Shown here piece after piece: positions 1,499 through 15,562 of a stretch of 40,086 bases of DNA (within the stretch, counting starts at the first letter, position 1; each line of letters begins with the position of its first letter). The notes beneath the pieces are model-generated. The model was not told the DNA's origin. It worked only from the letters and a program-made list of their open reading frames with translations, and did no database searches. The stretch spans positions 1-40,086 of the forward strand of contig JAAEZA010000010.1 of NCBI GenBank assembly GCA_018223125.1, given 5' to 3'. The position numbers and the translations under genes are program-made. This stretch comes from Paracoccaceae bacterium. GTDB taxonomy: Bacteria; Pseudomonadota; Alphaproteobacteria; Rhodobacterales; Rhodobacteraceae.

Positions 1499-2644
1499 TT
1501 ACAGGCAGGCTTTGAAAAGCGCCGTAACGTTTTCTTTGGTCAGTTCGACCGGATTGCCGCCACAGCTTGGGTCGGTCAGGGCGGATGCAACCAATGCGTC
1601 GATGTCCGGATCGGTGACGCCCAGCTCTGTCAGGGTTGCCGGAATCCCGAGAGAGGCATTCAGTTCCCCGACGAAATCATAAAATCCGTCAAAGCCGCCT
1701 TCAATGCCTAAATAAGCCGCTGCCTGTGTCAGGCGCTCTTCCACTTCGGGGCGGTTCAACTTCAGAACAGCCTGCATTACGACCGCGTTTGTGGTGCCGT
1801 GGTGTGTGTGGTGAACTGCGCCGATCGGGTGGGACATTGCATGGATCGCGCCAAGCCCCTTCTGAAACGCAGTGGCCCCCATAGCAGCGGCAGACATCAT
1901 ATGGGCGCGGGCTTCGATATCTGTTCCATCGTTATAGGCGCGGGGCAGGTATTCCTTGACCAGCCGCATGCCTTCCAGCGCCATGCCTTGGGACATAGGG
2001 TGGTAATGGGGGGAGCAGAAAGCTTCCAGACAATGGGCAAAAGCATCCATGCCGGTGCCTGCGGTGATCATTGGAGGCATGCCAACAGTCAGTTCGGGAT
2101 CGCAGATCACGACGGACGGCAGGAACTTCGGATGGAAGATGATCTTCTTTTCGTGGGTTTCGCTGTTGGTGATCACTGATGCGCGGCCCACTTCGGAACC
2201 GGTGCCAGCAGTGGTCGGTACGGCCACGATCGGGGCAATTCCATCGGGATCGGCGCGGGTCCACCAGTCCCCTATGTCCTCGAAATCCCAGATCGGGCGG
2301 GTCTGGCCGGACATGAAGGCGACCAGCTTGCCCAGATCAAGACCGGAGCCGCCACCAAAAGCGATCACGCCGTCATGGCCACCGTCACGGAACATCTTGA
2401 TACCGGCTTCGGCGTTCTGTTCTGTCGGGTTCGGGTCTACATCCGAAAACATCGCACGGCCAAGTCCGGCGGCTTCCATCAGATCCAGTGTGGACTGTGT
2501 GATCGGCAGGTAGGACAGGCCCTTGTCAGTCACCAGAAGCGGTTTCTTGATGCCCGCTGCTGCGCAAGCATCGGCGAGTTCGGAGATTCGGCCAGCGCCG
2601 AAACGGATTGCGGTCGGATAGGACCAGTTTGCAGTCAAAGACAT
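1499..2644 (-). CDS. Iron-containing alcohol dehydrogenase
   Basis: A group III, metal-dependent NAD(P) alcohol dehydrogenase of 381 residues, the usual family length. Visible motifs are the glycine-rich nucleotide site GGGSGLDLGK (97-106), the PTTAGTGSEV box (143-152), and the expected metal ligands D200 and H204 (GMDAFAHCLEAF), H268 and H282 (IHAMSHPIGAVHHTHHG). The extra histidines around H278-H282 make the second metal loop unusually His-rich. It is the last gene of the island, four bases after the aldehyde dehydrogenase stop, so the two are co-transcribed and may act on successive alcohol and aldehyde intermediates. The substrate cannot be read from sequence; an omega-hydroxy acid or an amino-alcohol derivative is the inference from context. 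Confidence 0.93.
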   Translation of the reverse strand: MSLTANWSYPTAIRFGAGRISELADACAAAGIKKPLLVTDKGLSYLPITQSTLDLMEAAGLGRAMFSDVDPNPTEQNAEAGIKMFRDGGHDGVIAFGGGSGLDLGKLVAFMSGQTRPIWDFEDIGDWWTRADPDGIAPIVAVPTTAGTGSEVGRASVITNSETHEKKIIFHPKFLPSVVICDPELTVGMPPMITAGTGMDAFAHCLEAFCSPHYHPMSQGMALEGMRLVKEYLPRAYNDGTDIEARAHMMSAAAMGATAFQKGLGAIHAMSHPIGAVHHTHHGTTNAVVMQAVLKLNRPEVEERLTQAAAYLGIEGGFDGFYDFVGELNASLGIPATLTELGVTDPDIDALVASALTDPSCGGNPVELTKENVTALFKACL

Positions 2645-2648
2645 CGGG

Positions 2649-4022
2649 TCAGCCCTTTTTCAGATGGTAGGATTTTGGACGGGTAAGGTTGTGATAGCCG
2701 ATCACGGACAGGCCACCGCCGCGCCCTGTATCCTTGCAGCCGGTCCAGCACAAGCCGGGATCAAGATAGTCGGCGCGGTTCATAAAGACGGTTCCGGTTT
2801 CGATCCGGTCCGCAATCGCCTCTGCGCGGGCGGCGTCCTGTGTCCAGAGCGATGCGGTCAGGCCGAAATCGCTGTCATTCATCAGGGCGATGGCTTCTTC
2901 ATCGTCCTTGACGGACATGATTCCCACGACAGGGCCGAAGCTTTCTTCGCGCATGACGCGCATGTCATGGGTCATGCCGGTCAGGATCTGGGGCATCAGA
3001 TAGGCACCACCGTCCTCGGGGAAATCCGCAGGGTCAATATGGGCTTTGGCACCGGCGGCGATTGCCTCGGCGGTCTGGGCGCGGACTTCGTCTGCGAAAC
3101 GTACATGGGCCATCGGGCCGATGGTCGTCTCCTGTTCCAGCGGATTGCCGAGCTTGTAACCCTTCACAATCGCCACTGCCTTTTCGACAAAGGCATCGAA
3201 CAGGGTTTCATGGACGTAAATCCGCTCGATCCCGCAGCAGCACTGGCCGGAGTTGAACATCGCCCCGTCGATCAGTGTATCAACGGCAGCGTCCAGATTG
3301 GCGTCTTCCATCACATAGCCCGGGTCTTTACCGCCCAGTTCCAGCCCGATCCCCGTAAAGGTGCCAGCCGCCGCCTGTTCCATGGCCTTGCCGCCCCCGA
3401 CAGAGCCGGTGAAGTTCACAAACCCGAAGGCGCGGTCCGCAATCAGGCCGGATGTGGTCTGATGGTCAAGGAACACATTCTGGAACACGTCTTCAGGGAT
3501 ACCGACTGAATGAAACGCCTTTGCCATACGTTCCCCCACCAGCGGGGTTTGCGAGGCGTGTTTCAGCATCACCGCATTCCCTGCGATCAGGGCAGGGGCC
3601 ACGGTGTTGATCGCGGTCATATAGGGATAGTTCCACGGGGCAACCACCAGAACCAGCCCGTGGGGCACCCGTTTGATGACACGGCGGAAGGCATCGGAGT
3701 CTTCTACCTCAATCGGGGCGAGCGCCTCTGTCGCGATGCTGGCCATATAGCTGGCCCGTTCGTTAAACCCGCCAAATTCGCCGCCATAGCGCACGGGGCG
3801 CCCCATCTGCCACGCGATTTCGGGAACGATTTCGTCGTTCATCGCGCCCACTGCGGCAACGCCCGCTTCAACCAGTGCGATCCGGTCGGCAAGCGGCTTT
3901 GCGGCCCAATCGGCCTGTGCAGCTTTGGCCCGTTTTACCGCAGCATCCGCCTCGGCGCGGGTCAGGGTGGGACGTTCGGCATAGACCGACCCGTCGATAG
4001 GAGAGATACATTTGATCGTCAT
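2649..4022 (-). CDS. NAD(P)-dependent aldehyde dehydrogenase
   Basis: Oxidises an aldehyde to the carboxylic acid. The 457-residue protein is slightly short for the superfamily (about 480-500) but has every catalytic element: PWNYP with N131, the cofactor lysine K154, the general base E228 in LELGGKDPG, and the nucleophile C262 in FNSGQCCCG, where three consecutive cysteines occur. EESFGPVVGI and the C-terminal GCKDTGRG are also typical. ATG at 4020-4022 is only three bases from the upstream ligase stop codon, which implies translational coupling. It resembles the succinate-semialdehyde and gamma-aminobutyraldehyde dehydrogenase side of the family; next to a gamma-glutamyl ligase it probably oxidises a gamma-glutamylated amino-aldehyde. 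The precise substrate is inference. Confidence 0.93.
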   Translation of the reverse strand: MTIKCISPIDGSVYAERPTLTRAEADAAVKRAKAAQADWAAKPLADRIALVEAGVAAVGAMNDEIVPEIAWQMGRPVRYGGEFGGFNERASYMASIATEALAPIEVEDSDAFRRVIKRVPHGLVLVVAPWNYPYMTAINTVAPALIAGNAVMLKHASQTPLVGERMAKAFHSVGIPEDVFQNVFLDHQTTSGLIADRAFGFVNFTGSVGGGKAMEQAAAGTFTGIGLELGGKDPGYVMEDANLDAAVDTLIDGAMFNSGQCCCGIERIYVHETLFDAFVEKAVAIVKGYKLGNPLEQETTIGPMAHVRFADEVRAQTAEAIAAGAKAHIDPADFPEDGGAYLMPQILTGMTHDMRVMREESFGPVVGIMSVKDDEEAIALMNDSDFGLTASLWTQDAARAEAIADRIETGTVFMNRADYLDPGLCWTGCKDTGRGGGLSVIGYHNLTRPKSYHLKKG

Positions 4023-4025
4023 GGA

Positions 4026-5390
4026 TTAAGCCCTTTCAAAGCCCCGTGCGATTTCCCAATCGGTTACAACACGGTCGAATTCTTCCTGTTCCCATTCCGC
4101 CGCGCGGGTGTAATGGTCGATCACATCGTCGCCCATGACCTCGCGCAGGAATTTGGAGTTGCGCAGCAGTTCGGTCGCCGCCCGCAGGGTCTGGGGAATG
4201 TCGCCTGCCTTGGCGTCCTCATAGACATCGCCTTTGGTCGGGGCAGACAGTTCCATTTTCTCTTCGATGCCCTTGATGCCTGCGGCCAGCATCGCGGCCT
4301 GTGCAAGATAGGGGTTCAGATCGGACCCGCCGATGCGGCATTCCACGCGGATGCCTTTGGTGCCATCACCGCAGAGACGGAAACCGGCGGTGCGGTTGTC
4401 CACGGACCAGACGGTTTTGGTCGGCGCAAAGGTGCCTTTGGCAAAGCGTTTGTAGCTGTTCACATAAGGCGCAAGGAAATAGGTGTAATCCGGCGCATAG
4501 GCGATCAGTCCGGCCATATAGTGGCCCATCATCTCTGACATACCCAGATCACGGTCCTTGTCATAAAAGGCAGGCTCTCCGTCTTTCCACAGGGACTGGT
4601 GCACATGGGACGACGACCCCACCCGATCCTTGTGCCATTTCGGCAGGAAGGTTGCGGCGTGGCCGTTCTGCCACGCGATTTCCTTGATCGCGTGTTTGGC
4701 GATGGAGTGGTAATCGGCGCAGTCCAGTGCTGCGGAATAGCGGATGTTCAGTTCTTCCTGACCGGATTCCGCTTCCCCCTTGGAGTTCTCGATTGGCAGG
4801 CCCGCCGCATACAGATGGTTGCGGATCGGGCGCATTATGCCTTCTTCCTTGGTGGTCTGGAAGATATGGTAGTCTTCGTTATAGCCGCTGATCGGTTGCA
4901 GATCGCGAAAGCCGTCGCGGCGCAATTCGTCCAGTGTCTTTTCAAACAGGAAGAATTCCAGCTCGGTCGCCATCATCGCATCAAAGCCCAGCTCTTTCAG
5001 GCGGGCGATCTGCTTTTTCAGCATGGCACGGGGGGAATGGGGGATTGGTTCGTGAGTGTGATGATCCAGAATATCACACAGCACCATCGCGGTGCCTTCC
5101 AGCCACGGCACGGGACGGATGGTGTCCAGATCGGGCTTCATGACATAATCGCCATAGCCGGTTTCCCAACTGGTAGAGGCATAGCCGTCAGGGGTGGCCA
5201 TCTCCAGATCGGTGGCCAGCAGGTAATTACAGCAGTGTGTTTCCTTGTAGGAGTTTTCTACAAAGTTGACAGCGTGGAAACGCTTGCCCATCAGGCGGCC
5301 TTGCATATCCACAAAACAGACAAGAACGGTGTCGATTGATCCATCGGACACGCGGGACTTCAGATCATCAAAACTAAGATTGGCAGGCAT
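4026..5390 (-). CDS. Glutamine synthetase-like gamma-glutamyl amine ligase (PuuA/GMAS type)
   Basis: A 454-residue member of the glutamine synthetase superfamily. These enzymes join the gamma-carboxyl of glutamate to ammonia or, in the PuuA, methylamide and ethanolamine branches, to an amine, using ATP. Recognisable segments are the N-terminal beta-grasp part (VLVCFVDMQGRLMGKR), the metal/glutamate site ATELEFFLFE, GSSSHVHQSLW, and the C-terminal VECRIGGSDLNPYLAQAAMLAAG. It lacks the adenylylation-site region expected of a true GlnA and is the amine-ligase subtype by context: aldehyde and alcohol dehydrogenases follow directly. I chose ATG 5388-5390; a TTG at 5415-5417 is in frame but sits inside the left arm of a strong hairpin. 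The amine substrate is not known. Confidence 0.9.
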   Translation of the reverse strand: MPANLSFDDLKSRVSDGSIDTVLVCFVDMQGRLMGKRFHAVNFVENSYKETHCCNYLLATDLEMATPDGYASTSWETGYGDYVMKPDLDTIRPVPWLEGTAMVLCDILDHHTHEPIPHSPRAMLKKQIARLKELGFDAMMATELEFFLFEKTLDELRRDGFRDLQPISGYNEDYHIFQTTKEEGIMRPIRNHLYAAGLPIENSKGEAESGQEELNIRYSAALDCADYHSIAKHAIKEIAWQNGHAATFLPKWHKDRVGSSSHVHQSLWKDGEPAFYDKDRDLGMSEMMGHYMAGLIAYAPDYTYFLAPYVNSYKRFAKGTFAPTKTVWSVDNRTAGFRLCGDGTKGIRVECRIGGSDLNPYLAQAAMLAAGIKGIEEKMELSAPTKGDVYEDAKAGDIPQTLRAATELLRNSKFLREVMGDDVIDHYTRAAEWEQEEFDRVVTDWEIARGFERA

Positions 5391-5413
5391 GGTGATTCCA
5401 CTTTCTAATCGGA

Positions 5414-5440
5414 CCAAGGGCGGCAGAACGCCGCCCTTGG
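5414..5440 (-). other. Intercistronic hairpin between the TRAP binding-protein gene and the ligase gene
   Basis: A perfect 11-base-pair stem (5414-5424 with 5430-5440, arm CCAAGGGCGGC) with a five-base loop, 22 bases after the binding-protein stop codon and just before the ligase start. There is no U-run on the minus strand. In many solute-binding-protein operons a stem here protects the abundant upstream message and damps expression of the downstream genes; that role is inferred from position. Confidence 0.65.
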
Positions 5441-5462
5441 AATGTCATTTCAAAGACCGGCT

Positions 5463-6494
5463 TCAGGTGTAGCGGTACGGACGGCCGGCTTTCAGCATGT
5501 CGGCGTTGTACTTCTTGATGATGTCCACCACGCGGCGTTTCGTTTCGGACTCGGCAGCGATTTCTTCCCAGAATTCCTGTGCAGCAGTTTCCACGGTTGC
5601 CCATTCGTCGTCCGGAATGGAGGTCAGTTCCATTTTCGGGCCGTTCACGCGCAGATCGGCCTCGCCACCCCAGTACCACCACTGACGATAGTAGTGGGAC
5701 TGGTCACAGCAGACACGGAACAGCGCTTGCAGGTCTTCTGGCAGTTCGTTCCAGCGTTCCATATTGGCAAAGAAGGAACCGGCCCATGCGCCGGAAATGT
5801 TGTTGGTCAGGAAGTAGTTGGTCACATCGGCCCAACCAACGGTGTAATCCTCGGTGATGCCGGACCACGCGATCCCGTCAAGTTCGCCGGTCTGTACCGC
5901 AACCTCGATGTCTTCCCACGGCAGGTTCACTGGAACCACACCGAACTGGGACATAAAGCGGCCCGCTGTCGGGAAGGTGAAGATGCGCTTGCCCTTAAGG
6001 TCTTCGAGGCTGCGGATCGGGTCTTTGGTGGCAAAGTGGCACGGATCCCATGCACCGGCAGAAATGTGTTTCACGCCGACTTTGGAATATTCTTCGTCCC
6101 AAATTTCGTTCAGGCCGTATTTGTTGAACAGCACAGGCACATCGAGCGAGTAGCGCGAAGCAAACGGGAAGTAGCCGCCAAACACGGTCACTTCGGTCGG
6201 GGAGGCCATAGAGTCATCATCCGATTGCACAGCGTCGATGGTGCCGCGCTGCATCGCCTGGAACAGCTCGCCTGTCGGGACCAGCTGATCTGCAAAGAAC
6301 AGCTCGATCTGCATGCGGTCGCCTGCGATCTTGTTGAACATATCCACGGCAGGCACGATCACATGTTCCGCCAGTGCAGCCCCCGCATAGGTCTGCATCC
6401 GCCATTTGATGGTGCTTTGCGCCAGTGCAGGGGTTGCAAGCGCCGCAGCCGGAGCCACGGCAGCGCCCTGAATAAACTTACGTCTGGTAGTCAT
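5463..6494 (-). CDS. dctP: TRAP transporter solute-binding protein (DctP/TakP type)
   Basis: Periplasmic receptor of a TRAP transporter: it binds the substrate and delivers it to the DctQM membrane pair. The protein has 343 residues. It begins with a twin-arginine signal (TTRRKFIQG) and an Ala-rich stretch ending ATPALA-QS, so Tat export and signal peptidase cleavage after about residue 26 are expected. The body has the family arrangement, including the GKRIFTFPTAGRFMSQFG segment with the conserved arginine that normally holds a substrate carboxylate, and the WSGITEDYTVGW and YYRQWWYWG regions seen in the TakP/mannitol-chloroaromatic subgroup. The ligand therefore probably carries a carboxylate, but it is not otherwise identified. 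It lies downstream of dctQ-dctM in the same operon. Confidence 0.92.
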   Translation of the reverse strand: MTTRRKFIQGAAVAPAAALATPALAQSTIKWRMQTYAGAALAEHVIVPAVDMFNKIAGDRMQIELFFADQLVPTGELFQAMQRGTIDAVQSDDDSMASPTEVTVFGGYFPFASRYSLDVPVLFNKYGLNEIWDEEYSKVGVKHISAGAWDPCHFATKDPIRSLEDLKGKRIFTFPTAGRFMSQFGVVPVNLPWEDIEVAVQTGELDGIAWSGITEDYTVGWADVTNYFLTNNISGAWAGSFFANMERWNELPEDLQALFRVCCDQSHYYRQWWYWGGEADLRVNGPKMELTSIPDDEWATVETAAQEFWEEIAAESETKRRVVDIIKKYNADMLKAGRPYRYT

Positions 6495-6536
6495 AGTCTT
6501 TCTCCTTGTTTTGATTGGGGCCGGTTGGTCCGGCTT

Positions 6537-7865
6537 CTAGGGTTTGTTGTAAATGTAATCGGGCAGCCATGTGGCGATGCCGGGGAACACCATGACCAGT
6601 ATCAACGCCAGCAGCATGACCAGCACAAACGGTGTGATCGAGGCATAGATGTCCCGCAGACCGATTTCCGGCGGCGCCATGGCCCGCATCAGAAACAGGT
6701 TATAGCCGAATGGCGGTGTCATATAGGCGATCTGGGTCGTGATCGTATAAAGGATACCATACCAGATCAGGTCAAAGCCGAGCGCGCCGACAAGCGGCAC
6801 ATAAAGCGGTGCCACGATCACCAGCATGGCGGTATCGTCCAGAAACGTCCCCATCAGAATAAAGCTGAGCTGCATCAGGATCAGGATCATCCACGGGCTG
6901 AGGTTCAGCTTCTCGGTAAAGACGCTCTCAATCGCTTTCACCGCGCCCAAACCGTCAAACACCGCGCCAAAGGCAAGGGCGGCAAGGATGATCCACATGA
7001 ACATACAGGTGATGCCAAGGGTGTTGCGCACGGAATTCTCAAACACCTCGCGGGTCATGCGCCCTTTCAGCACCGCCGCGACAAAGGCCGCCAGCGCCCC
7101 GATGGCAGAGCTTTCCACCAGAGAGGTCCAGCCGTTCACAAAGGGCACCATCATGACAGCAAAAATCGCAATCGGCAGGATACCCGCCCGCAGCAGGCGC
7201 ATTTTCTCGGCGCGGGGGATATCCCGTTCGGAAGGGTCAAGCACCGGACCCAGCACCGGATTCATCCGGCAGCGGATCACGATATAGGCGATGAACATCC
7301 CTGCCATCATCAGGCCGGGCACCACACCGGCCAGCCACAACTGGCCCACAGGCTGCCGCGCGATCATGGCGTAAAGCACCAGCACCACAGAAGGCGGCAC
7401 AAGGATACCAAGGGAAGACCCCGCCTGTATCACTCCTGTGACCATCCTTTTGTCATACCCCCGCTTTAACAGTTCGGGCAGGGCAATGGTGGAACCGATG
7501 GCCATACCGGCCACAGACAGTCCGTTCATGGCGGAAATCAACACCATCAAACCGATCGTCCCGATTGCCAGACCGCCGCGCAGGCCGCCCATCCAGACGT
7601 GGAACATTTTATACAGGTCGTCGGCAATCTTGGATTCCGACAGCACATAGCCCATGAAAATAAACATCGGCAGCGTCAGCAGCGGATACCATTTCATCAG
7701 CTTCATAGCGGCAGAGAAGCCTATATCAAAGCCCCCCCTGTCCCCCCAAAGCAGCAGGGCCGCGACAACAGCGATAAATCCGATAGCCCCGAACACGCGC
7801 TGGCCGGTCAGCAGCATCAGCATCATGGAAGAGAACATCAGAATGGCGATCAATTCATAGGACAT
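6537..7865 (-). CDS. dctM: TRAP transporter large permease subunit DctM
   Basis: The 442-residue, highly hydrophobic large subunit that forms the ion-coupled transport channel. It starts MSYELIAILMFSSMMLMLLTGQRVFGAIGF and contains the DctM signatures PMFIFMGYVLSESKIADDLY, GMAIGSTIALPELLKRGYDKRM, GSSLGILVPPSVVLVLYAMI and GTFLDDTAMLVI, with roughly twelve membrane segments. Length and motifs are normal. Its ATG (7863-7865) overlaps the dctQ stop by one base, so the two membrane subunits are translationally coupled; the binding-protein gene follows 42 bases downstream. Confidence 0.95.
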   Translation of the reverse strand: MSYELIAILMFSSMMLMLLTGQRVFGAIGFIAVVAALLLWGDRGGFDIGFSAAMKLMKWYPLLTLPMFIFMGYVLSESKIADDLYKMFHVWMGGLRGGLAIGTIGLMVLISAMNGLSVAGMAIGSTIALPELLKRGYDKRMVTGVIQAGSSLGILVPPSVVLVLYAMIARQPVGQLWLAGVVPGLMMAGMFIAYIVIRCRMNPVLGPVLDPSERDIPRAEKMRLLRAGILPIAIFAVMMVPFVNGWTSLVESSAIGALAAFVAAVLKGRMTREVFENSVRNTLGITCMFMWIILAALAFGAVFDGLGAVKAIESVFTEKLNLSPWMILILMQLSFILMGTFLDDTAMLVIVAPLYVPLVGALGFDLIWYGILYTITTQIAYMTPPFGYNLFLMRAMAPPEIGLRDIYASITPFVLVMLLALILVMVFPGIATWLPDYIYNKP

Positions 7866-8434
7866 CAGATTTCTTCGCCTTTAAGCCGCAGCACGTCTTT
7901 CAACAGCTCCGAGATGCATTGCAGTAACATGAGTGTGAGTCCGGCGATCATGATGGATTTGATCGGCCACAGATAAGGGCGCCACGCCGAAGAAGACCGC
8001 TCCGCGCGGCCCACCTCTTCGGCGCCTGTGGCGAGACCGGCAAGGAAGGAAAACGGCTCGCCGCCCCAATACCCAAGGGAATAGGCGGTCGAACTGACCG
8101 CGCCATAGATCATGACGGCGAGATAGAAGATCAGGAACAGCACGGTAATCAGATCGGTCCATGCCTTTCGTCGCAAGGACCATTCACCATAAAGCAGGTC
8201 CATGCGCACGTTCGATCCCATCTGGATCGAATAGGGTCCGCCCAGAATGTAATAGGCCACCATGCAGAACTGTGCCATTTCCAGCGTCCAGAGCGACGGC
8301 AGGAAGAAGGTCTTGCTGATCGAGGACCACAGCAGGATGCCCATCAGCACAAAGATGCCGTACATCATGAAGCGGCCGATGCGATAGTTTACAGCGTCAA
8401 CAGCGCGAATGTATCCATAAGCCAACCCGCGCAT
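7865..8434 (-). CDS. dctQ: TRAP transporter small permease subunit DctQ
   Basis: A 189-residue protein with four membrane segments (about 22-42, 50-70, 95-118 and 155-175), matching the DctQ fold that pairs with DctM. The loop between segments three and four (GGEPFSFLAGLATGAEEVGRA) is long and polar. The ATG at 8432-8434 overlaps the stop of the preceding amidohydrolase gene by one base, and the gene's own end overlaps dctM, so the amidohydrolase and transporter genes are tightly coupled. Small permeases diverge quickly, but the position next to dctM makes the identity secure. Confidence 0.93.
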   Translation of the reverse strand: MRGLAYGYIRAVDAVNYRIGRFMMYGIFVLMGILLWSSISKTFFLPSLWTLEMAQFCMVAYYILGGPYSIQMGSNVRMDLLYGEWSLRRKAWTDLITVLFLIFYLAVMIYGAVSSTAYSLGYWGGEPFSFLAGLATGAEEVGRAERSSSAWRPYLWPIKSIMIAGLTLMLLQCISELLKDVLRLKGEEI

Positions 8435-9201
8435 TAAGCCTGCCCTTCTTCTGACAGGGCGGTCATTGCGGACTCCAGCCAGCCGCAGATCGTATCGCCC
8501 ATGTCCCGTTGCTGTCGATCCGATCCTATCAGATCATTCCGGACCTCCAGCATCACATTGGCGTAACCGAACGGCAGGCCGTGTTCTTTAAGTGTGTGCG
8601 TCACACCGTTTTCAGGGCCGTAGGGTTCGTTGCGCTGGACGACAAAAGCGCTGCCTTGCGCAGCTTCGAGCATTCCGTCCGCCAGTCGTGTATCGCTGTC
8701 ATGGAGAATGCCGATTTCAACGGTGCGCGGGTGTCCGTGATATACCGGCGTGAAGCTGTGGACCGTCACGATAACTGGCGTAGCACCGCGCGCGGCTGTT
8801 GTCTTGATTGTGTCGGCAAGTGTCTTTCGGAAGGGGTGGTAGTAGGTGTCTGCGCGTGCCTGACGGGCCGCATCATCCAGTTCTGCGTTGCCGGGAACCA
8901 CAACCAATTCGCTGCGGGCCGGCATTGCGTCCGGTGCGCTCGGCGGGCGGTTGCAATCGTAAACAAGGCGGGAAACATTGCTGGCCACCAGTTTTGCATC
9001 GAGCCGTTCTGCCATCCGCCTTGCAACAGCCAGTGCGCCCGGATCCCATGCCGCATGGCTGAGCCGGTCCGCGGATGCGAGTCCGAGATCCTGCAACTCG
9101 GGCGGAATGAAAGAGGATGCGTGCTCACACACCAGCACCACAGGCGATTCGCCCGCGGGGTTCAGAACCTCTACAACGTCTTCTGCTTTGGTGGCAGTCA
9201 T
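8434..9201 (-). CDS. N-formylglutamate amidohydrolase family protein
   Basis: A 255-residue metal-dependent amidohydrolase of the N-formylglutamate deformylase family (HutG/PF05013). The family pattern is visible in order: VLVCEHASSFIPPEL, HAAWDPGAL, NVSRLVYDCNRPPS and VTVHSFTPVYHG, which carry the usual His, Asp and Arg metal/substrate residues. The classical reaction releases formate from N-formylglutamate at the end of histidine degradation, but there are no hut genes here. It is instead the first gene of an operon with a TRAP transporter and a gamma-glutamyl ligase, so it may cleave an N-acyl or gamma-glutamyl amide; this is inference. Its ATG at 9199-9201 is preceded by the divergent promoter region at 9202-9321. 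Confidence 0.88.
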   Translation of the reverse strand: MTATKAEDVVEVLNPAGESPVVLVCEHASSFIPPELQDLGLASADRLSHAAWDPGALAVARRMAERLDAKLVASNVSRLVYDCNRPPSAPDAMPARSELVVVPGNAELDDAARQARADTYYHPFRKTLADTIKTTAARGATPVIVTVHSFTPVYHGHPRTVEIGILHDSDTRLADGMLEAAQGSAFVVQRNEPYGPENGVTHTLKEHGLPFGYANVMLEVRNDLIGSDRQQRDMGDTICGWLESAMTALSEEGQA

Positions 9202-9250
9202 TGAAACTATTTTCCCTGTTCGGGTTAAACTTCTTGCGCATCGCGGAATA

Positions 9251-9256
9251 TGTCAA
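9251..9256 (-). promoter_or_regulatory. Perfect -35 box (TTGACA) for the catabolic operon
   Basis: On the minus strand TTGACA occurs at 9256-9251, about 50 bases before the amidohydrolase start. The matching -10 region, 17-18 bases on, is poor (GAAGTT/AAGTTT), which fits a regulated promoter needing an activator or one held off by the neighbouring regulator. Only the -35 hexamer is clear. Confidence 0.4.
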
Positions 9257-9266
9257 CAGAATTGTG

Positions 9267-9298
9267 TTACAAAAAGAACAGAAGTCGCAGCGTTGTAA
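9267..9298. promoter_or_regulatory. Candidate operator for the RpiR-type regulator
   Basis: Two inverted half-sites, TTACAA at 9267-9272 and TTGTAA at 9293-9298, flank 20 bases within the gap between the divergent regulator and operon. TGTAA half-sites are known for some RpiR-family members (for example HexR). The overlapping shorter palindrome TTGT-N3-ACAA at 9262-9272 touches the same place. Assignment rests on position and weak symmetry. Confidence 0.3.
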
Positions 9299-9321
9299 TT
9301 TTAGTCGTCAAACGAGTCTCC

Positions 9322-10194
9322 ATGCCAGAAAACCAGCCTACTATTTCCGACCGCATCCAACGGGAGCTGGACAGGCTTACCCGAGCCGAACGCCAGCTTG
9401 CCCATTCGATTCTGGAAAACTATCCGGCCTCGGGGCTGGGTCCGCTGGCGACACTGGCCAAGGATGCGAATGTTTCGGCGCCGACCGTGGCGCGGATGGT
9501 GCAGAAACTGGGGTTCAAGGGTTATCCCGAATTCCAGACCGAACTGCGCGAGGAACTGCGCTCCAAGGCAAAGAACCCGATTGCCAAACATGATACATGG
9601 GCGGAAGGCGCGCCGTCGGGGCATGTGCTGAACCGCTTCACCGATGCGGTGATCGACAATATCCGTCACACGCTCGGCCAGATCGACCCTGATGATTTTG
9701 ACGCCGCTTGCGGTTTGATCGGAGATCCGGACCGCGCCCTATACATCGTCGGCGGGCGGATTACCCATACAATGGCGGAGTATCTGTTCCTGCATGCACA
9801 GGTGATCCGCGCAGCGGTGACACATATCCAGTCCACTTCCAATACATGGCCCCATTACCTGCTGGACGTGAAAGAGGGCGATGTCTTTGTCATTTTTGAC
9901 AACCGCCGCTATGAAAACAACACGCTGAAACTGGCGGAGATGGCCCATGCCAAGGGTGCAAAGATTGTTCTGTTTACCGACCAGTGGCGCTCCCCTGTAC
10001 ATCATCTGGCCGATATCTGTTTCAGCAGCCGGATCGTTGTGCCCTCTGCATGGGATTCGGCGGCGACAACTCTGCTGTTGGTAGAAACGGTGATTGCTGC
10101 CATTCAGGACCAGAACTGGGCGCAGACCAAAGACCGGACGGAACGGCTGGAGGATATGTTCGACCAGACCAAACTGTTCCGCAAGTTTACCTGA
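9322..10194 (+). CDS. MurR/RpiR family transcriptional regulator
   Basis: A 290-residue DNA-binding regulator. Residues 1-77 form the RpiR helix-turn-helix domain (TRAERQLAHSILENY, NVSAPTVARMVQKLGFKGYPEF) and about 115-260 a sugar-isomerase (SIS) ligand domain (RALYIVGGRITHTMAEYLF, VFVIFDNRRYENNTLKLAEMA). In this family the SIS domain normally senses a phosphosugar, but members controlling amine and amino-acid catabolism also exist. The ATG at 9322 is preferred; an ATG at 9250 is in frame but would place coding sequence over the promoter of the divergent operon and adds a tail unlike the family. It is transcribed away from the catabolic operon and is its likely local regulator. Confidence 0.92.
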   Translation: MPENQPTISDRIQRELDRLTRAERQLAHSILENYPASGLGPLATLAKDANVSAPTVARMVQKLGFKGYPEFQTELREELRSKAKNPIAKHDTWAEGAPSGHVLNRFTDAVIDNIRHTLGQIDPDDFDAACGLIGDPDRALYIVGGRITHTMAEYLFLHAQVIRAAVTHIQSTSNTWPHYLLDVKEGDVFVIFDNRRYENNTLKLAEMAHAKGAKIVLFTDQWRSPVHHLADICFSSRIVVPSAWDSAATTLLLVETVIAAIQDQNWAQTKDRTERLEDMFDQTKLFRKFT

Positions 10195-11149: not shown

Positions 11150-11884
11150 TCAGGATTTGGTCGCGGCGCGGATCAGGGCGTCGAACAGGTTTTGCTGGCT
11201 TTTGTCCGTTTCCGCCGAAAGTTCGGGATGCCATTGCACGGCAAGGAAGAACGGGTGGTTCGGATCCTCCAGCGCCTCGACGATGCCATCGGGGGCATGG
11301 GCTACAGCGCGCAGTGCGGGGGCGACACGGCTGATTGCCTGATGGTGGCCGGAAAAGGTATCGACCTCGGTACAATCCATCACGTCTGCCAGTTTTGAAT
11401 CCGGATCAACGGCGACAGGCTGGCGGGTCCACCCGCCATCTGCATTGCGGTGAATGTCGCCGGGATGAAGGTCGGGAATATGCTGGAGAAGATCCCCGCC
11501 AAGCGCAACGTTCAGCACTTGCATCCCCCGACAGATGAACAGGACCGGTATGTCCTTTCGCGTCTGTAGGGCTTTCAGAAGGGCCAGTTCGGTTTCATCC
11601 CGCTCCGTTGATGCTTTAAGCTGGTTCGGGTGCTCCGGATTTCCTTTGTAATATTTCGGGTCCATATCGGTGCCGCCGGTGAAGATGATCCCGTCCAGCA
11701 CCCGCAGCCAGTCCCCGTGATGGGGTTCGCCGGAGGGAAGGAGCATGGCAGTTCCGCCCGCGCGACGCACGGCGTCAACATAAAGGGCAGGGGTGCTATA
11801 GTAATCGTCGTAGTAGTTTTCCACCGCTTCTACGTCGGTGCGCCCTTCGGTCAGGATGCCGATGAGCGGCCTTTTGTGTGTCAT
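11150..11884 (-). CDS. Class I glutamine amidotransferase-like gamma-glutamyl hydrolase (PuuD family, peptidase C26)
   Basis: A 244-residue member of the family that hydrolyses gamma-glutamyl-gamma-aminobutyrate to glutamate and GABA in the E. coli putrescine pathway. The catalytic triad is visible: nucleophile C118 in PVLFICRGMQVLNVALGG, and H219 and E221 in AVQWHPEL; FTGGTDMDPKYY and FSGHHQAI are also typical. The start is ATG 11882-11884; an upstream in-frame TTG at 11965 would overlap thiQ and adds a non-family extension. It follows thiQ by 61 bases on the same strand, yet its biochemistry matches the gamma-glutamyl ligase island 2 kb away, separated by trmL and a transporter. No good ribosome site is visible. 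Confidence 0.88.
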   Translation of the reverse strand: MTHKRPLIGILTEGRTDVEAVENYYDDYYSTPALYVDAVRRAGGTAMLLPSGEPHHGDWLRVLDGIIFTGGTDMDPKYYKGNPEHPNQLKASTERDETELALLKALQTRKDIPVLFICRGMQVLNVALGGDLLQHIPDLHPGDIHRNADGGWTRQPVAVDPDSKLADVMDCTEVDTFSGHHQAISRVAPALRAVAHAPDGIVEALEDPNHPFFLAVQWHPELSAETDKSQQNLFDALIRAATKS

Positions 11885-11945
11885 GTCGGGACGGCCTTGC
11901 AGAGAGTGATAATCCGGTCTCTCAAAGCCTGAGTAATTGGCCCTG

Positions 11946-12653
11946 TCAAGAGGGCGGACGGCCAAGGTAGCGTTGCAGAACCTCGGGGGGATCAGCCATC
12001 AGGGTTTTGGTGTCGACCGGCGGGTGGGCCTTGCCCTCTGCGATGAGCAGGGTCTGGTCGCTGATGCGGATCGCGTCCTCGGGCTGGTGTGTGACCATGA
12101 GCAGGGTCGCTCTGGCGGCCTCTGTGATCTCGGCAACAAGATCGAGCATCTCCAGTTTGAGCGCGGGGCCGAGGGCGGCAAAAGGCTCGTCCAGCATAAG
12201 AACCGGCTTGTCCCGCAGCAGCGCACGGGCGATGGCGACCCTTTGCTGTTGTCCGCCAGAGAGTTCCGCGGGTCGTTTGGCACCCAGCGCGTCCAGTCCG
12301 ACCCGTGCCAGCGCCCGTTCCACGGTTGCATGTTCCGCCCCTGAAAGCCTGAGATCGGGGCGTAATCCGAGACCGATGTTCTGTGCTGCTGTCAGATGGG
12401 GAAACAGGTTGTGGTCCTGAAACAACAGGGTGACAGGCCGCCGGGCAGGGTGTGTGCCTGTGATGTCGTCACCCCGCCACAGGATACGGCCGCTTTGGGG
12501 TGTTTTGAAACCGGCCAGAGCAGATAGCAGGGTGGACTTCCCGCCGCCTGATGGACCGAGCAGGGCGACTTTATGCCCTTCTTCAATCTCAAGATCGGCG
12601 CTGAGGGTAAACTCCCCCTGCATCAGGCGCAGCTTATCGAATGTGATGGTCAA
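11946..12653 (-). CDS. thiQ: Thiamine ABC transporter ATP-binding protein
   Basis: The 235-residue ATPase that powers thiamine/TPP import through ThiP. Walker A GPSGGGKS (33-40), Q-loop LLFQDHNLFPHLT, signature LSGGQQQR (131-138) and Walker B VLMLDEP (151-157) are in place. The D-loop, usually SALD, reads AALG (G162), so its aspartate is replaced. I choose a TTG start at 12651-12653: it has GGAGG five bases upstream and puts Walker A about 33 residues from the N-terminus as in E. coli ThiQ, while overlapping the end of thiP by 20 bases. A longer reading from 12704 would overlap thiP by some 70 bases. Last of the riboswitch-controlled operon. Confidence 0.93.
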   Translation of the reverse strand: MTITFDKLRLMQGEFTLSADLEIEEGHKVALLGPSGGGKSTLLSALAGFKTPQSGRILWRGDDITGTHPARRPVTLLFQDHNLFPHLTAAQNIGLGLRPDLRLSGAEHATVERALARVGLDALGAKRPAELSGGQQQRVAIARALLRDKPVLMLDEPFAALGPALKLEMLDLVAEITEAARATLLMVTHQPEDAIRISDQTLLIAEGKAHPPVDTKTLMADPPEVLQRYLGRPPS

Positions 12654-14250
12654 GGCGACCTCCGCGATCAAAGGCCCAGAACAGGGCAAGGGATGTGCCG
12701 ACAAGCAGCAGGGCCGCTCCGGCGGCGGCCTCCATCTGATAGGCTGCCATAAGACGGTACATGGTTAGGGGCAGGGTTGCAAAATCCGGTGGCGCAAACA
12801 GCGCGATGACGCCGAGATCGCCCATCGAGAGCGCCGCCGACAGTCCCGCTGCAAAGCCTGCGGCCCGTTTGATCCGCGGCCAGATGGCGATGCGGAACAG
12901 GGTCAGGCCGGTCATGCCCAGCGAAGCACCCAGTCGCCCGTAGTGATCCTCTGCCCGTTGCAGCGCGGGCAAAAGAATGCGCAGGGCAAAGGGCAGCGAC
13001 ATGGTTGCGTTGACCGCAATTGTGATCGGCAGGGCGAGCTTGAACGGGTCGATTACCGGGTTGAGCAGAACAAACAGTCCGGTGCCGATGACAAATGGCG
13101 ATGCGGCCAGCGCGAGAAAGCCGATGGCTTCCAGCAGGGCGGCTGCTTTGCTGCGGCGGGCCATATCGGTGATCAGCGCGGCCAGCGCCAGCGCCAGTGC
13201 CGTGGCCAGCAGCGCGGCGGGGATGGCAATCAGCAGGGAATTCAGCAGGGCGGGCCAGATTTGCGGCGGCAGCGAGAACAAAGGCGGTAATCCGCGCAGG
13301 ACAACCGACACCAGCGGTGCAAAGAGAAACAGTGCCACCCCCAGCAGCAGAACCGTATCAAAGATGCGTGTTCCGGTTTCCGTGCCGTCCCAGCGCGCTG
13401 GCGGATGGTCCAGCCCGACAGAAAAAGCGGTGGGTCGTGCCAGCGCCAGCGTTGCGCCGGCTGTGGCTGTACAGAGCGCGAATTGCAGGATGGACAGAAG
13501 TGCTGCCTTGGACAGGTCAAAGTCGAAGCGGAGCGCCTGATAGATGGCAAGTTCGATTGTGGTTGCGCGGGGCCCGCCGCCAAGGGAAAGGGCCACGGCA
13601 AAGCTGGTCAGGCACAGCAGGAAGACCAGCAGGAAAGCCCCCGGAACAGCGGCGCGCAGCATCGGGCGCTCCAGCTGGCGGTTTACGTCCCTGCTGGTAA
13701 AGCCGAGCTCTGCCGCAAGCCGGAAATGTTCAGCGGGAATTGTCATCCAACCTTGCAGGATCAGCCGGGTTGCAAGGGGCAGGTTGAAGAATACATGGGC
13801 CAGGACGACTCCGCTGAACCCGTAAATATTGAGAGGTGCCAGCCCGAGCGCCGTCAATCCGCCGGATATCAGGCCGGAGCGTCCCCAGACAGAGACAATC
13901 CCGAGAACCGCAACAATGGCGGGCAGAATGAAGGGTGCACCGAGCAGGGCTACCATGACCTGACGGCCCCGAAACCGGCGCCTTGCCAGAGCGCGTGCGG
14001 TGGGAATAGCGAGGGCAATGCTTAACGCTGCCGAAAGAAGGGCCTGAAGTACGGTGAAACGGATTGCAGCCCAGTCGGCCAGAGTGAAGCCGCGCCCCGC
14101 TGTTGCCTGTGAAGCCACGGCCGCCACCGTTCCGACCGTCAAAAGCAGCACCACCAGAAGGGCGGCGCTGCCTGTGACAGTCTTGAAACGGGAGGGGCGG
14201 GACCAATGCCCGTTACGGGCAGGGATTATTTGCTGAGCGCGGTCAGCCAT
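12634..14250 (-). CDS. thiP: Thiamine ABC transporter permease
   Basis: A 538-residue inner-membrane permease of the ThiP type: two fused permease halves, each about 250 residues with six or so membrane helices. The characteristic cytoplasmic coupling loops appear at LAAELGFTSRDVNRQLERPMLRAA (half one) and LGASLGMTGLTLFRIAIWPRIKRAA (half two). The N-terminus is basic and the C-terminus ends LALFWAFDRGGRLDHHIR. The ATG at 14248-14250 overlaps the thiB reading frame by 25 bases and the gene itself overlaps thiQ, so thiB-thiP-thiQ is a coupled unit. ThiP transports thiamine and its phosphates; the substrate follows from the TPP riboswitch upstream and the ThiB-type binding protein. Confidence 0.94.
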   Translation of the reverse strand: MADRAQQIIPARNGHWSRPSRFKTVTGSAALLVVLLLTVGTVAAVASQATAGRGFTLADWAAIRFTVLQALLSAALSIALAIPTARALARRRFRGRQVMVALLGAPFILPAIVAVLGIVSVWGRSGLISGGLTALGLAPLNIYGFSGVVLAHVFFNLPLATRLILQGWMTIPAEHFRLAAELGFTSRDVNRQLERPMLRAAVPGAFLLVFLLCLTSFAVALSLGGGPRATTIELAIYQALRFDFDLSKAALLSILQFALCTATAGATLALARPTAFSVGLDHPPARWDGTETGTRIFDTVLLLGVALFLFAPLVSVVLRGLPPLFSLPPQIWPALLNSLLIAIPAALLATALALALAALITDMARRSKAAALLEAIGFLALAASPFVIGTGLFVLLNPVIDPFKLALPITIAVNATMSLPFALRILLPALQRAEDHYGRLGASLGMTGLTLFRIAIWPRIKRAAGFAAGLSAALSMGDLGVIALFAPPDFATLPLTMYRLMAAYQMEAAAGAALLLVGTSLALFWAFDRGGRLDHHIR

Positions 14251-15251
14251 TCGGCAAGGGCGTCCTCTCTGATCGCTTCCACTTCGCTATCGCTGAAGAT
14301 CAGGCTGTCTTCGGGAGTGATCAACTGTTCGAACCCTTCGGGCAGGCCGTCGTCAGGGAATTTGGCAGGATACATCCAGTTTGTTGTCGGAATGATCGAC
14401 TGGAAGGCATCGGTCGTCATGAAGCTCAGGAACCGGTCTGCCAGTTCCGGTTGGTCTGTCGCTGCCAGCTTTCCGGCCACTTCGATTTGCATGTAATGGC
14501 CCTCTTCAAAAGACGCGGCCGATTTGGTGTGATCTTCTTCTGCAATGATGTGATAGGCGGGGGAGGTGGTGTAGCTCAGCACCATATCCGCCTCTCCTTC
14601 CAGAAACATGCCGTAGGCTTCGGACCAGCCTTTGGTGACGGTCAGGATGCGCGGAGCGAGCGATTCCCAGATATGGGCCGATTTGTTCGGATAAGCCGCT
14701 TTGATCCACATCAACAGTCCCAGTCCCGGGGTGGAGGAACGCGGATCCTGAATGACGATCTTCAGGTCTTCGTCCGCCTCGATCAATTCCTGAAAACTGC
14801 CCGGAACATCTTGCAGCTTGGTGTTGTCGTAAACAAAGGCGAAATAGCCCCAGTCGTAAGGGGCGAAAGTGTCATCGCTCCATTCTACGGGCACATCCAG
14901 ACCGGAAGGCGCAGGGGAGAGTTTGGCGAACAGGCCGGTGGCCTTGGCCCGCGCTGTAATATTGGTGTCCAGCCCGAGAACCACGTCGGCATCGCTGCGC
15001 GCGCCTTCCAGTTGCAAACGGGACAGCAGGGCAGCGCCGTCACCGGCGTTGATCAGTTGCAAATCGCATTCACAGATTGCTTCGAAGGCTTTCTCCACTT
15101 GCGGTCCCGGTCCCCAATCCGTGACAAAACTGTCGTAGGTGTAAACGGTCAGCACAGGCTTCTCCTGCGCCTGCACGATGCCCGCCAGAGTTGCAGACAG
15201 GCCGATTGATGTGATGCAGCCGATAAATCCAGTGCGCAGGGAAAAAATCAT
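14226..15251 (-). CDS. thiB: Thiamine ABC transporter substrate-binding protein
   Basis: A 341-residue periplasmic receptor for thiamine, TMP and TPP. It has a signal peptide (MIFSLRTGFIGCITSIGLSA, cleaved near VQA-QE) and then LTVYTYDSFVTDWGPGPQVEKAFE, the usual beginning of ThiB proteins. Later segments such as DVVLGLDTNITARA, APYDWGYFAFVYD, IQDPRSSTPGLGLLMW, GWSEAYGMFLEGEADMVLSYTTSPAYH and NWMYPAKF are those of the iron/thiamine/spermidine binding-protein group and its ThiB branch. A ribosome site AAGGA precedes the ATG. It is the first gene behind the TPP riboswitch. Confidence 0.94.
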   Translation of the reverse strand: MIFSLRTGFIGCITSIGLSATLAGIVQAQEKPVLTVYTYDSFVTDWGPGPQVEKAFEAICECDLQLINAGDGAALLSRLQLEGARSDADVVLGLDTNITARAKATGLFAKLSPAPSGLDVPVEWSDDTFAPYDWGYFAFVYDNTKLQDVPGSFQELIEADEDLKIVIQDPRSSTPGLGLLMWIKAAYPNKSAHIWESLAPRILTVTKGWSEAYGMFLEGEADMVLSYTTSPAYHIIAEEDHTKSAASFEEGHYMQIEVAGKLAATDQPELADRFLSFMTTDAFQSIIPTTNWMYPAKFPDDGLPEGFEQLITPEDSLIFSDSEVEAIREDALAEWLTALSK

Positions 15252-15303
15252 TTCTTCAATCCTTTCAAGCTACAGACGGTTGGCAGGATCAGGAAAATTC
15301 ACC

Positions 15304-15395
15304 GCACCTTCCCTCCGCCGGTATGATCCGGTTCAGGTTCAACGGGTCACGCGATGGCGTATCTCAGGCCGGATAAACGGCCCCCCCGAGGTTGC
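15304..15395 (-). promoter_or_regulatory. TPP riboswitch (THI element) controlling thiBPQ
   Basis: Read on the minus strand, this 92-base stretch has the conserved thi-box order: P1 5' arm GCAACCT (15395-15389), a G-run, CTGAGA (15367-15362), TGACCCGTTGAACCTGA, GGATCATACC and GGAGGGAAGG (15316-15307), closing with AGGTGC (15309-15304), which pairs with the 5' arm around one bulged A. The aptamer ends 52 bases before the thiB ATG, so the expression platform lies in 15252-15303; control of translation initiation is likely because no terminator with a U-run is visible there. Binding of thiamine diphosphate should repress the importer. Confidence 0.95.
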
Positions 15396-15562
15396 TTCAG
15401 GTGTAACAGCGCAGGGTCAAAAAGCAAGTGGATCGGTGGCGCGTTGCGGCTTTGTCTGTGGATAGTCGCTACAAAATCCAATTTGAGACAAAGTTCTGAC
15501 CAAATGTGCGGCTAGCTTTAGCGAAAGTTAAGTAGCGTATTTGAGCATGAGGAACGCAGGCA
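15396..15562. other. Divergent promoter region between thiB and the acidic orphan
   Basis: Together with the riboswitch this completes a 311-base gap between divergently transcribed genes. It should hold the minus-strand start of the riboswitch transcript and the plus-strand promoter of the 399-residue gene. A short symmetric CTTT-AGCG-AAAG element lies near 15520-15530. I could not place convincing -35/-10 pairs for either direction. Confidence 0.5.

Follow-up and report, generated by a model that had tools for sequence, protein, structure and literature searches.

The window analysed here, the whole 40,086-nucleotide stretch of contig JAAEZA010000010.1 (assembly GCA_018223125.1, Paracoccaceae bacterium, positions 1 to 40,086 of the forward strand), carries at positions 1499–10194 a cluster of eight genes that is very probably an eto-type operon for the uptake and catabolism of ethanolamine. 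This cluster has already been described in print, in both content and order, and the window provides a further member. In Phaeobacter sp. MED193, the genes for RpiR, GGAH, EtoV, EtoW, EtoX, ETAGA, GAADDH and GETADH run from MED193_10021 to MED193_10056 (PMC10132767; excerpts of this and of the other papers cited served as sources). The window has the same eight gene types in the order of these locus tags, with the regulator at the hydrolase end, and no difference in content or order from the excerpted description, which does not state strands, was found.

Locus layout and match to the published ethanolamine cluster

Gene content, order, orthology and diagnostic residues are seen in the window itself, in which seven tightly spaced minus-strand genes and a divergent plus-strand RpiR regulator are all complete, full-length open frames:

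1499–2644, minus strand: iron-containing alcohol dehydrogenase (PF00465/PF25137; Pfam Fe-ADH 165 bits, ADH_Fe_C 157 bits), proposed gamma-glutamylethanolamide dehydrogenase (GETADH-like)
2649–4022, minus strand: aldehyde dehydrogenase (PF00171; Pfam Aldedh 386 bits), proposed to oxidise gamma-glutamyl-aminoacetaldehyde to gamma-glutamylglycine (GAADDH-like)
4026–5390, minus strand: glutamine-synthetase-like ligase (PF00120; Pfam Gln-synt_C 329 bits), proposed ethanolamine gamma-glutamylase (ETAGA-like)
5414–5440, minus strand: 11-pair hairpin in the gap between the binding-protein and ligase genes (5391–5462); the stem is listed as terminator-like on the plus strand only
5463–6494, minus strand: solute-binding protein DctP of a tripartite ATP-independent periplasmic (TRAP) transporter (PF03480), EtoX-like, type A, with a leader of the twin-arginine translocation (Tat) type
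6537–7865, minus strand: TRAP large permease DctM (PF06808, 225 bits), EtoW-like
7865–8434, minus strand: TRAP small permease DctQ (PF04290, 62 bits), EtoV-like
8434–9201, minus strand: hydrolase of the N-formylglutamate amidohydrolase family (PF05013, 154 bits), proposed gamma-glutamylglycine amidohydrolase (GGAH-like)
9202–9321, no strand assigned: divergent intergenic region between the hydrolase and regulator genes, probably with the operon promoter and operator, and with a run conserved in aligned relatives
9322–10194, plus strand: RpiR-type regulator (HTH_6 and SIS domains; PF01418, PF01380)

The first-pass annotation had listed an amidohydrolase, a TRAP transporter, a glutamine-synthetase-like ligase, an aldehyde dehydrogenase, an iron alcohol dehydrogenase and a divergent RpiR regulator, and all of them were found where it had placed them, with strong Pfam matches. 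The gaps from the alcohol dehydrogenase gene through the hydrolase gene measure, by their coordinates, 4, 3, 72, 42, −1 and −1 bases, and such short or overlapping gaps make it likely that the seven minus-strand genes lie on a single transcript. For the ligase, the probable start codon is the ATG at 5390 rather than the listed TTG at 5417, and for the regulator it is the ATG near 9322 rather than the listed start at 9250. Recognition of the cluster assigns a substrate, ethanolamine, which is a membrane-lipid headgroup, to eight genes of which none, among the matches listed (25 of 44 for the aldehyde dehydrogenase), reached an NCBIfam equivalog cut-off; DctP reached the cut-off only for a TRAP subfamily model and the Tat-leader model.

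Five of the MED193 products (the hydrolase, EtoX, the ligase and both dehydrogenases) rise on phosphorylethanolamine, and the induced proteins have been ascribed to a single operon; purified EtoX binds ethanolamine with a Kd of 7.9 uM, and no binding was found for PE, G1P, G3P and PC, as they are labelled (PMC10132767). The route proposed there comprises import by EtoVWX, ligation to glutamate, conversion of the alcohol to the aldehyde and then to the acid, and release by the amidohydrolase. From the sequence alone, the first-pass annotation had suggested that a compound bearing an amine as well as an alcohol is imported and gamma-glutamylated, and that the amidohydrolase could then free the product; this same function has been proposed in print for the eight-gene cluster, with ethanolamine as the substrate, and the published proposal includes the same release step (PMC10132767). 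Versions of the pathway in Agrobacterium C58 and Chromohalobacter salexigens (Csal_0678 and neighbours) are cited in the same source, which also places etoX in about 5–10% of ocean bacteria, at every depth; the C. salexigens pathway is an in silico prediction (PMC6529630). The same scheme has been predicted for GlnA4 of Streptomyces coelicolor, with a predicted release step by a member of the formylglutamate amidohydrolase family: the chemistry is the same, but the phylum is different, and the excerpted text mentions no TRAP transporter alongside (PMC6529630).

In the organism of the window, a marine-type bacterium, periplasmic ethanolamine would be captured by EtoX and then imported through the DctQM-type permease. 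The glutamine-synthetase-like ligase would join ethanolamine to glutamate at the expense of ATP, yielding gamma-glutamylethanolamide, the hydroxyl group of which would be converted to an aldehyde by the iron alcohol dehydrogenase; the aldehyde dehydrogenase would then yield gamma-glutamylglycine, from which the PF05013 hydrolase would free glutamate and glycine. The glutamate cap would prevent the appearance of a free reactive amino-aldehyde and would make a B12 enzyme or a microcompartment unnecessary. The operon is likely to be controlled by the divergent RpiR protein, but regulation, the catalytic steps in this organism and the assignment of the hydrolase are all predicted. The Eut ethanolamine ammonia-lyase pathway acts on the same substrate with different enzymes, one of them a B12 enzyme; this reading was rejected, as EutB was not found in the window's own genome (0/1; 98.99% complete), with the E. 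coli control positive (1/14).

Binding protein and enzymes

The EtoX of the window matched PDB entries 4uab/4xf5 with 643 bits, ungapped over residues 25–342 (318 residues), and the next PDB sequence scored 71 bits. The 4uab structure is Csal_0678, solved with ethanolamine (PMC12410723). A carboxylate-gripping arginine is present in 96.8% of 6142 DctP-type proteins, its commonest replacement being phenylalanine, and Csal_0678 is without it (PMC4646407). Phe172 of the window protein aligns with an arginine of 4yzz that would be this carboxylate-binding residue (the Arg-147 equivalent), and position 172 is occupied by Phe in 44 and by Tyr in 22 of 66 aligned rows (the window and 65 relatives). 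All 66 rows have Glu215 (217 by the index of the 4uab chain), which, with a 3-residue offset in numbering, is probably the ligand-binding platform residue Glu220 of Csal_0678, which contacts ethanolamine. The most likely substrate is ethanolamine.

The ligase scored 777 bits against 5dm3 and 598 bits against 11zs, the next solved glutamine synthetase reaching 188 bits. It was 73–87% identical to its best 80 relatives and 25–31% identical to the five paralogues in its own genome with a BLAST match; kinship was judged by identities and bit scores, and a quick tree with PuuA and these paralogues had very long outside branches. Membership of the glutamine synthetase superfamily is what a nitrogen-assimilation or methylamine module, of the GlnA or gamma-glutamylmethylamide synthetase type, would have in its favour. 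However, the ligase obtained 258 bits against a cut-off of 429 for GlnA (TIGR00653) and 242 against 470 for type III (TIGR03105), 9qur and 7cql, which we take to be methylamine ligases, scored 148 and 120 bits against the 777 of 5dm3, and such a module leaves the two dehydrogenases unexplained, so that we give it next to no credence.

A putrescine-type (Puu) polyamine route would follow the same logic, since the E. coli Puu pathway also places a gamma-glutamyl cap before the aldehyde step, and a PuuD-family protein is encoded nearby, at 11150–11965. However, E. coli has the PuuB oxidase and the PuuD hydrolase, whereas the window has an alcohol dehydrogenase and a PF05013 hydrolase, with neither an amine oxidase (PuuB) nor PuuD among the eight genes scanned. 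The ligase is only 27.3% identical to E. coli PuuA over 447 residues and reached 206 bits against the GGputSyn cut-off of 650, and the fact that no PuuD homologue was found in the relatives' loci (see below) also argues against this route, which we regard as extremely improbable. None of the objections that the first-pass annotation had set for its own reading holds: by scores and identities the ligase is not of the GlnA, PuuA or methylamine-ligase kind, the spacing of the genes is compatible with one operon, and five proteins of the homologous MED193 operon respond to phosphorylethanolamine.

In the aldehyde dehydrogenase, N131, E228 and C261–C263 are invariant in the aligned orthologues, and these presumably include the catalytic residues of the enzyme. 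The iron alcohol dehydrogenase occupies the same place in the 57 relatives with a complete cluster. The hydrolase belongs to PF05013 and not to the PuuD family, and it matched PDB entry 2odf (Atu2144) with 273 bits. The closest solved relatives of the window proteins point to the C. salexigens and Agrobacterium pathway: 4uab for the binding protein, 5dm3, which we take to be the C. salexigens ligase, for the ligase, and 2odf for the hydrolase, Atu2144 being presumably part of the Agrobacterium ethanolamine pathway.

Several points weigh against assignment of the cluster to ethanolamine catabolism. The hydrolase shows the lowest conservation in the cluster, with a median identity of 53% across the relatives, as compared with 61% for the regulator, 66% for DctQ and 78–85% for the ligase, the dehydrogenases, DctM and DctP, and the PuuD-family protein encoded at 11150–11965 could be an alternative hydrolase. 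The likeness between the window and MED193 rests on gene order and solved relatives, not on direct sequence identity. The title of the pathway figure in PMC10132767 itself calls the route predicted; annotation and induction are the basis given there for the hydrolase step, and the section used here reports no activities of single enzymes. Finally, the panel of analogues named for EtoX (PE, G1P, G3P and PC) is narrow and leaves room for other amino alcohols. In a rival reading the route is the same, but its natural substrate is a different primary amino alcohol or a broader range of them (3-aminopropanol, serinol), with ethanolamine as only one of them; the enzyme set could conceivably handle any primary amino alcohol, and the binding-protein residues differ between two EtoX clades (see below). 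However, 4uab, with ethanolamine bound, carries the residue of the window (type A) at all ten positions distinguishing these clades (alignment read by eye), and the MED193 proteins respond to supplied phosphorylethanolamine (PMC10132767). We consider this wider specificity unlikely, and retain ethanolamine as the substrate.

The PuuD-like gene (11150–11965, minus strand; PF07722, 196 bits) encodes a gamma-glutamyl hydrolase-like protein and lies about 1 kb past the regulator; the same genome encodes one more protein with a strong PF07722 match (208 bits). No homologue was detected in the 80 fetched loci (E 1e-10, half length; several loci are short), and the gene was set aside as a member of the system for this reason.

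Distribution and conservation of the operon

Of 515 confirmed relatives of the ligase, the best 80 were examined, a sample that leans to close kin. Most of them are Rhodobacteraceae (old sense); the rest include Hoeflea, Stappia and further genera of the Rhizobiales-like kind, as well as Thalassospira and a single Halomonas. With a gene counted as present at 60% or more of its length, the gene set that the first-pass annotation had suggested looking for in other Rhodobacterales was recovered in full, all eight genes, in 57/80 loci, and in 57/57 the order was the same, with the regulator divergent. The eight-gene arrangement is beyond chance, because 57 of the 80 loci are complete and every one of these is co-linear. 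Enough flanking DNA was available for 65/80 loci, 53 of them complete and 12 not. Within the family of the window, the ligase of the eto cluster is common, being found in 117/198 genomes (E <= 1e-100), and EtoX was found in 108/198 (E <= 1e-60), the window's own genome being included in both counts.

Two forms of EtoX

The 66 EtoX rows were split by one branch with a support of 100 into 44 sequences of type A, including the window, and 22 of type B. This two-clade observation concerns the window (5463–6494), L013, L021, L026 and 19 others. Median identity was 84% among type-A sequences, 81% among type-B sequences and 64% across the two types; the ranges meet narrowly, the lowest value inside a type being 70.7% and the highest across types 71.2%. 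In the family search, full-length EtoX matches (5 partial matches were left out) were either 71–100% or 59–65% identical, and 26 fell in the lower band, typed by identity only. Ten positions were fixed differently in A and B (71, 90, 147, 149, 172, 191, 193, 271, 283 and 342, of which 342 is not covered by every row), and the changes from A to B include F172Y, at the selectivity-filter position, W149Q, W193Y and Q90H; positions 90, 149 and 193 would line the ligand pocket.

On the ligase tree, from which L071 and L076 were left out for the label counts as they are cut by contig ends, the EtoX type required 11 changes, 5 of them forced by well-supported branches. The FastTree ligase tree gave 12 changes (5 forced) and the DctM tree 8 changes (2 forced). 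The type also clusters by descent, the shuffled mean being about 18.7 changes. These forced changes on the ligase and DctM trees indicate that the binding-protein gene has been repeatedly exchanged inside an otherwise conserved operon. No residue fixed with EtoX type was found in the ligase, the dehydrogenases, the hydrolase or the regulator, where the best covariation had a Fisher p of 1e-5 (FeADH 210); the permeases covaried more with the type (1e-9 for DctM and 2e-8 for DctQ), all these values being uncorrected for relatedness and for the number of columns. Because the downstream enzymes show no fixed change by type, both types would appear to feed the same chemistry, which argues against a large change of substrate.

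We tentatively raise the possibility, which we think doubtful, that EtoX exists as two interchangeable forms with different ligand preferences, such that two amino-alcohol catchers would supply a single catabolic line, and, separately, that the pairs of ligase and alcohol dehydrogenase described below hint at a second use of gamma-glutamyl-amino-alcohols. If type B binds another ligand, counts of etoX as an ocean marker made with one profile mix two functions. Neither the two EtoX types nor the clusters lacking the aldehyde dehydrogenase were met in the excerpts of the cited papers, although no literature search aimed at them was made; among the papers listed, PMC10132767 is the one found to describe the TRAP-type cluster.

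In two Litoreibacter genomes (L110, 6037–11688, and L111), the genes for an EtoX of about 60–62% identity and for its permeases are separated from the ligase gene and adjoin a divergent FGGY gene that is glycerol-kinase-like. The family scan, applied to L110 only, identified the neighbours of this type-B TRAP system as the glycerol-kinase-like FGGY kinase, EamA transporters and a FadL-type protein, by which the ligand is not indicated.

Variant loci

The alcohol dehydrogenase gene directly follows the ligase gene in 7/80 loci (L016, L029, L034, L043, L078, L040 and L019). An aldehyde dehydrogenase orthologue was found in 0/7 of these genomes (E <= 1e-60) and in 8/8 of the others in the search, some of the genomes being metagenome assemblies. 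L040 and L019 retain the TRAP genes, the latter without the hydrolase and the regulator beside them. In the other five the ligase is stand-alone; EtoX was not found in these (E <= 1e-30), and their neighbours are other genes, in L034 for example those for zinc uptake and asparagine synthase. Lentibacter sp. XHP0401 and HTCC2150 are strains with only the ligase and the alcohol dehydrogenase. No diagnostic residue of the stand-alone ligases (present in at least 4/5 and in no more than 3 of the other 76 rows) was identified. The absence of the aldehyde dehydrogenase required 6 changes on the ligase tree, 3 of them forced, against a shuffle mean of 6.8; since the label is hardly more clustered than in the shuffles, the gene has probably been lost several times.

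Five further loci (L037, L058, L060, L064 and L077) keep both dehydrogenases, with the TRAP genes not beside the ligase, and L020 is without the alcohol dehydrogenase only. Near 8250–9210, a DeoR-type gene takes the place of the regulator gene next to the hydrolase gene in L058 (scanned), with L060 alike by position, and a LysR-type gene does so in L064.

Intergenic signals

The consensus promoter scan made no call in any gap of the operon or in the divergent region 9202–9321. It returned a total of 3 sites, below the shuffle mean of 5.4, with two on the minus strand, at 8518–8489 inside the hydrolase gene and at 1704–1676 inside the alcohol dehydrogenase gene. In an alignment of 30 of the 63 divergent regions, those with the closest regulators, a TTGACA-like run, ATT.TGTTGACA, was kept across the regions, and no operator was recognised.

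The 72-base gap between the binding-protein and ligase genes (5391–5462) had a predicted fold of −27.9 kcal/mol, as compared with −18.3 for base shuffles (z −3.1). Among the relatives, the z value of this gap was below −2 in 38/63 (median −2.6), and that of the DctM–DctP gap, taken for comparison, in 14/59 (median −0.9). A fold of −12 kcal/mol or lower was discarded as a measure of the hairpin: it was reached by 61/63 gaps, but base shuffles reach about 54/63, so that it is uninformative. The hairpin between the two genes may serve to make the binding protein more abundant.

Outside the operon, the sole Rfam match above the gathering threshold was a thiamine pyrophosphate (TPP) riboswitch at 15293–15397 on the minus strand (65.6 bits). 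The minus-strand genes downstream of it (11946–15251) resemble, as we take it, a thiamine transporter of the ATP-binding cassette (ABC) type.

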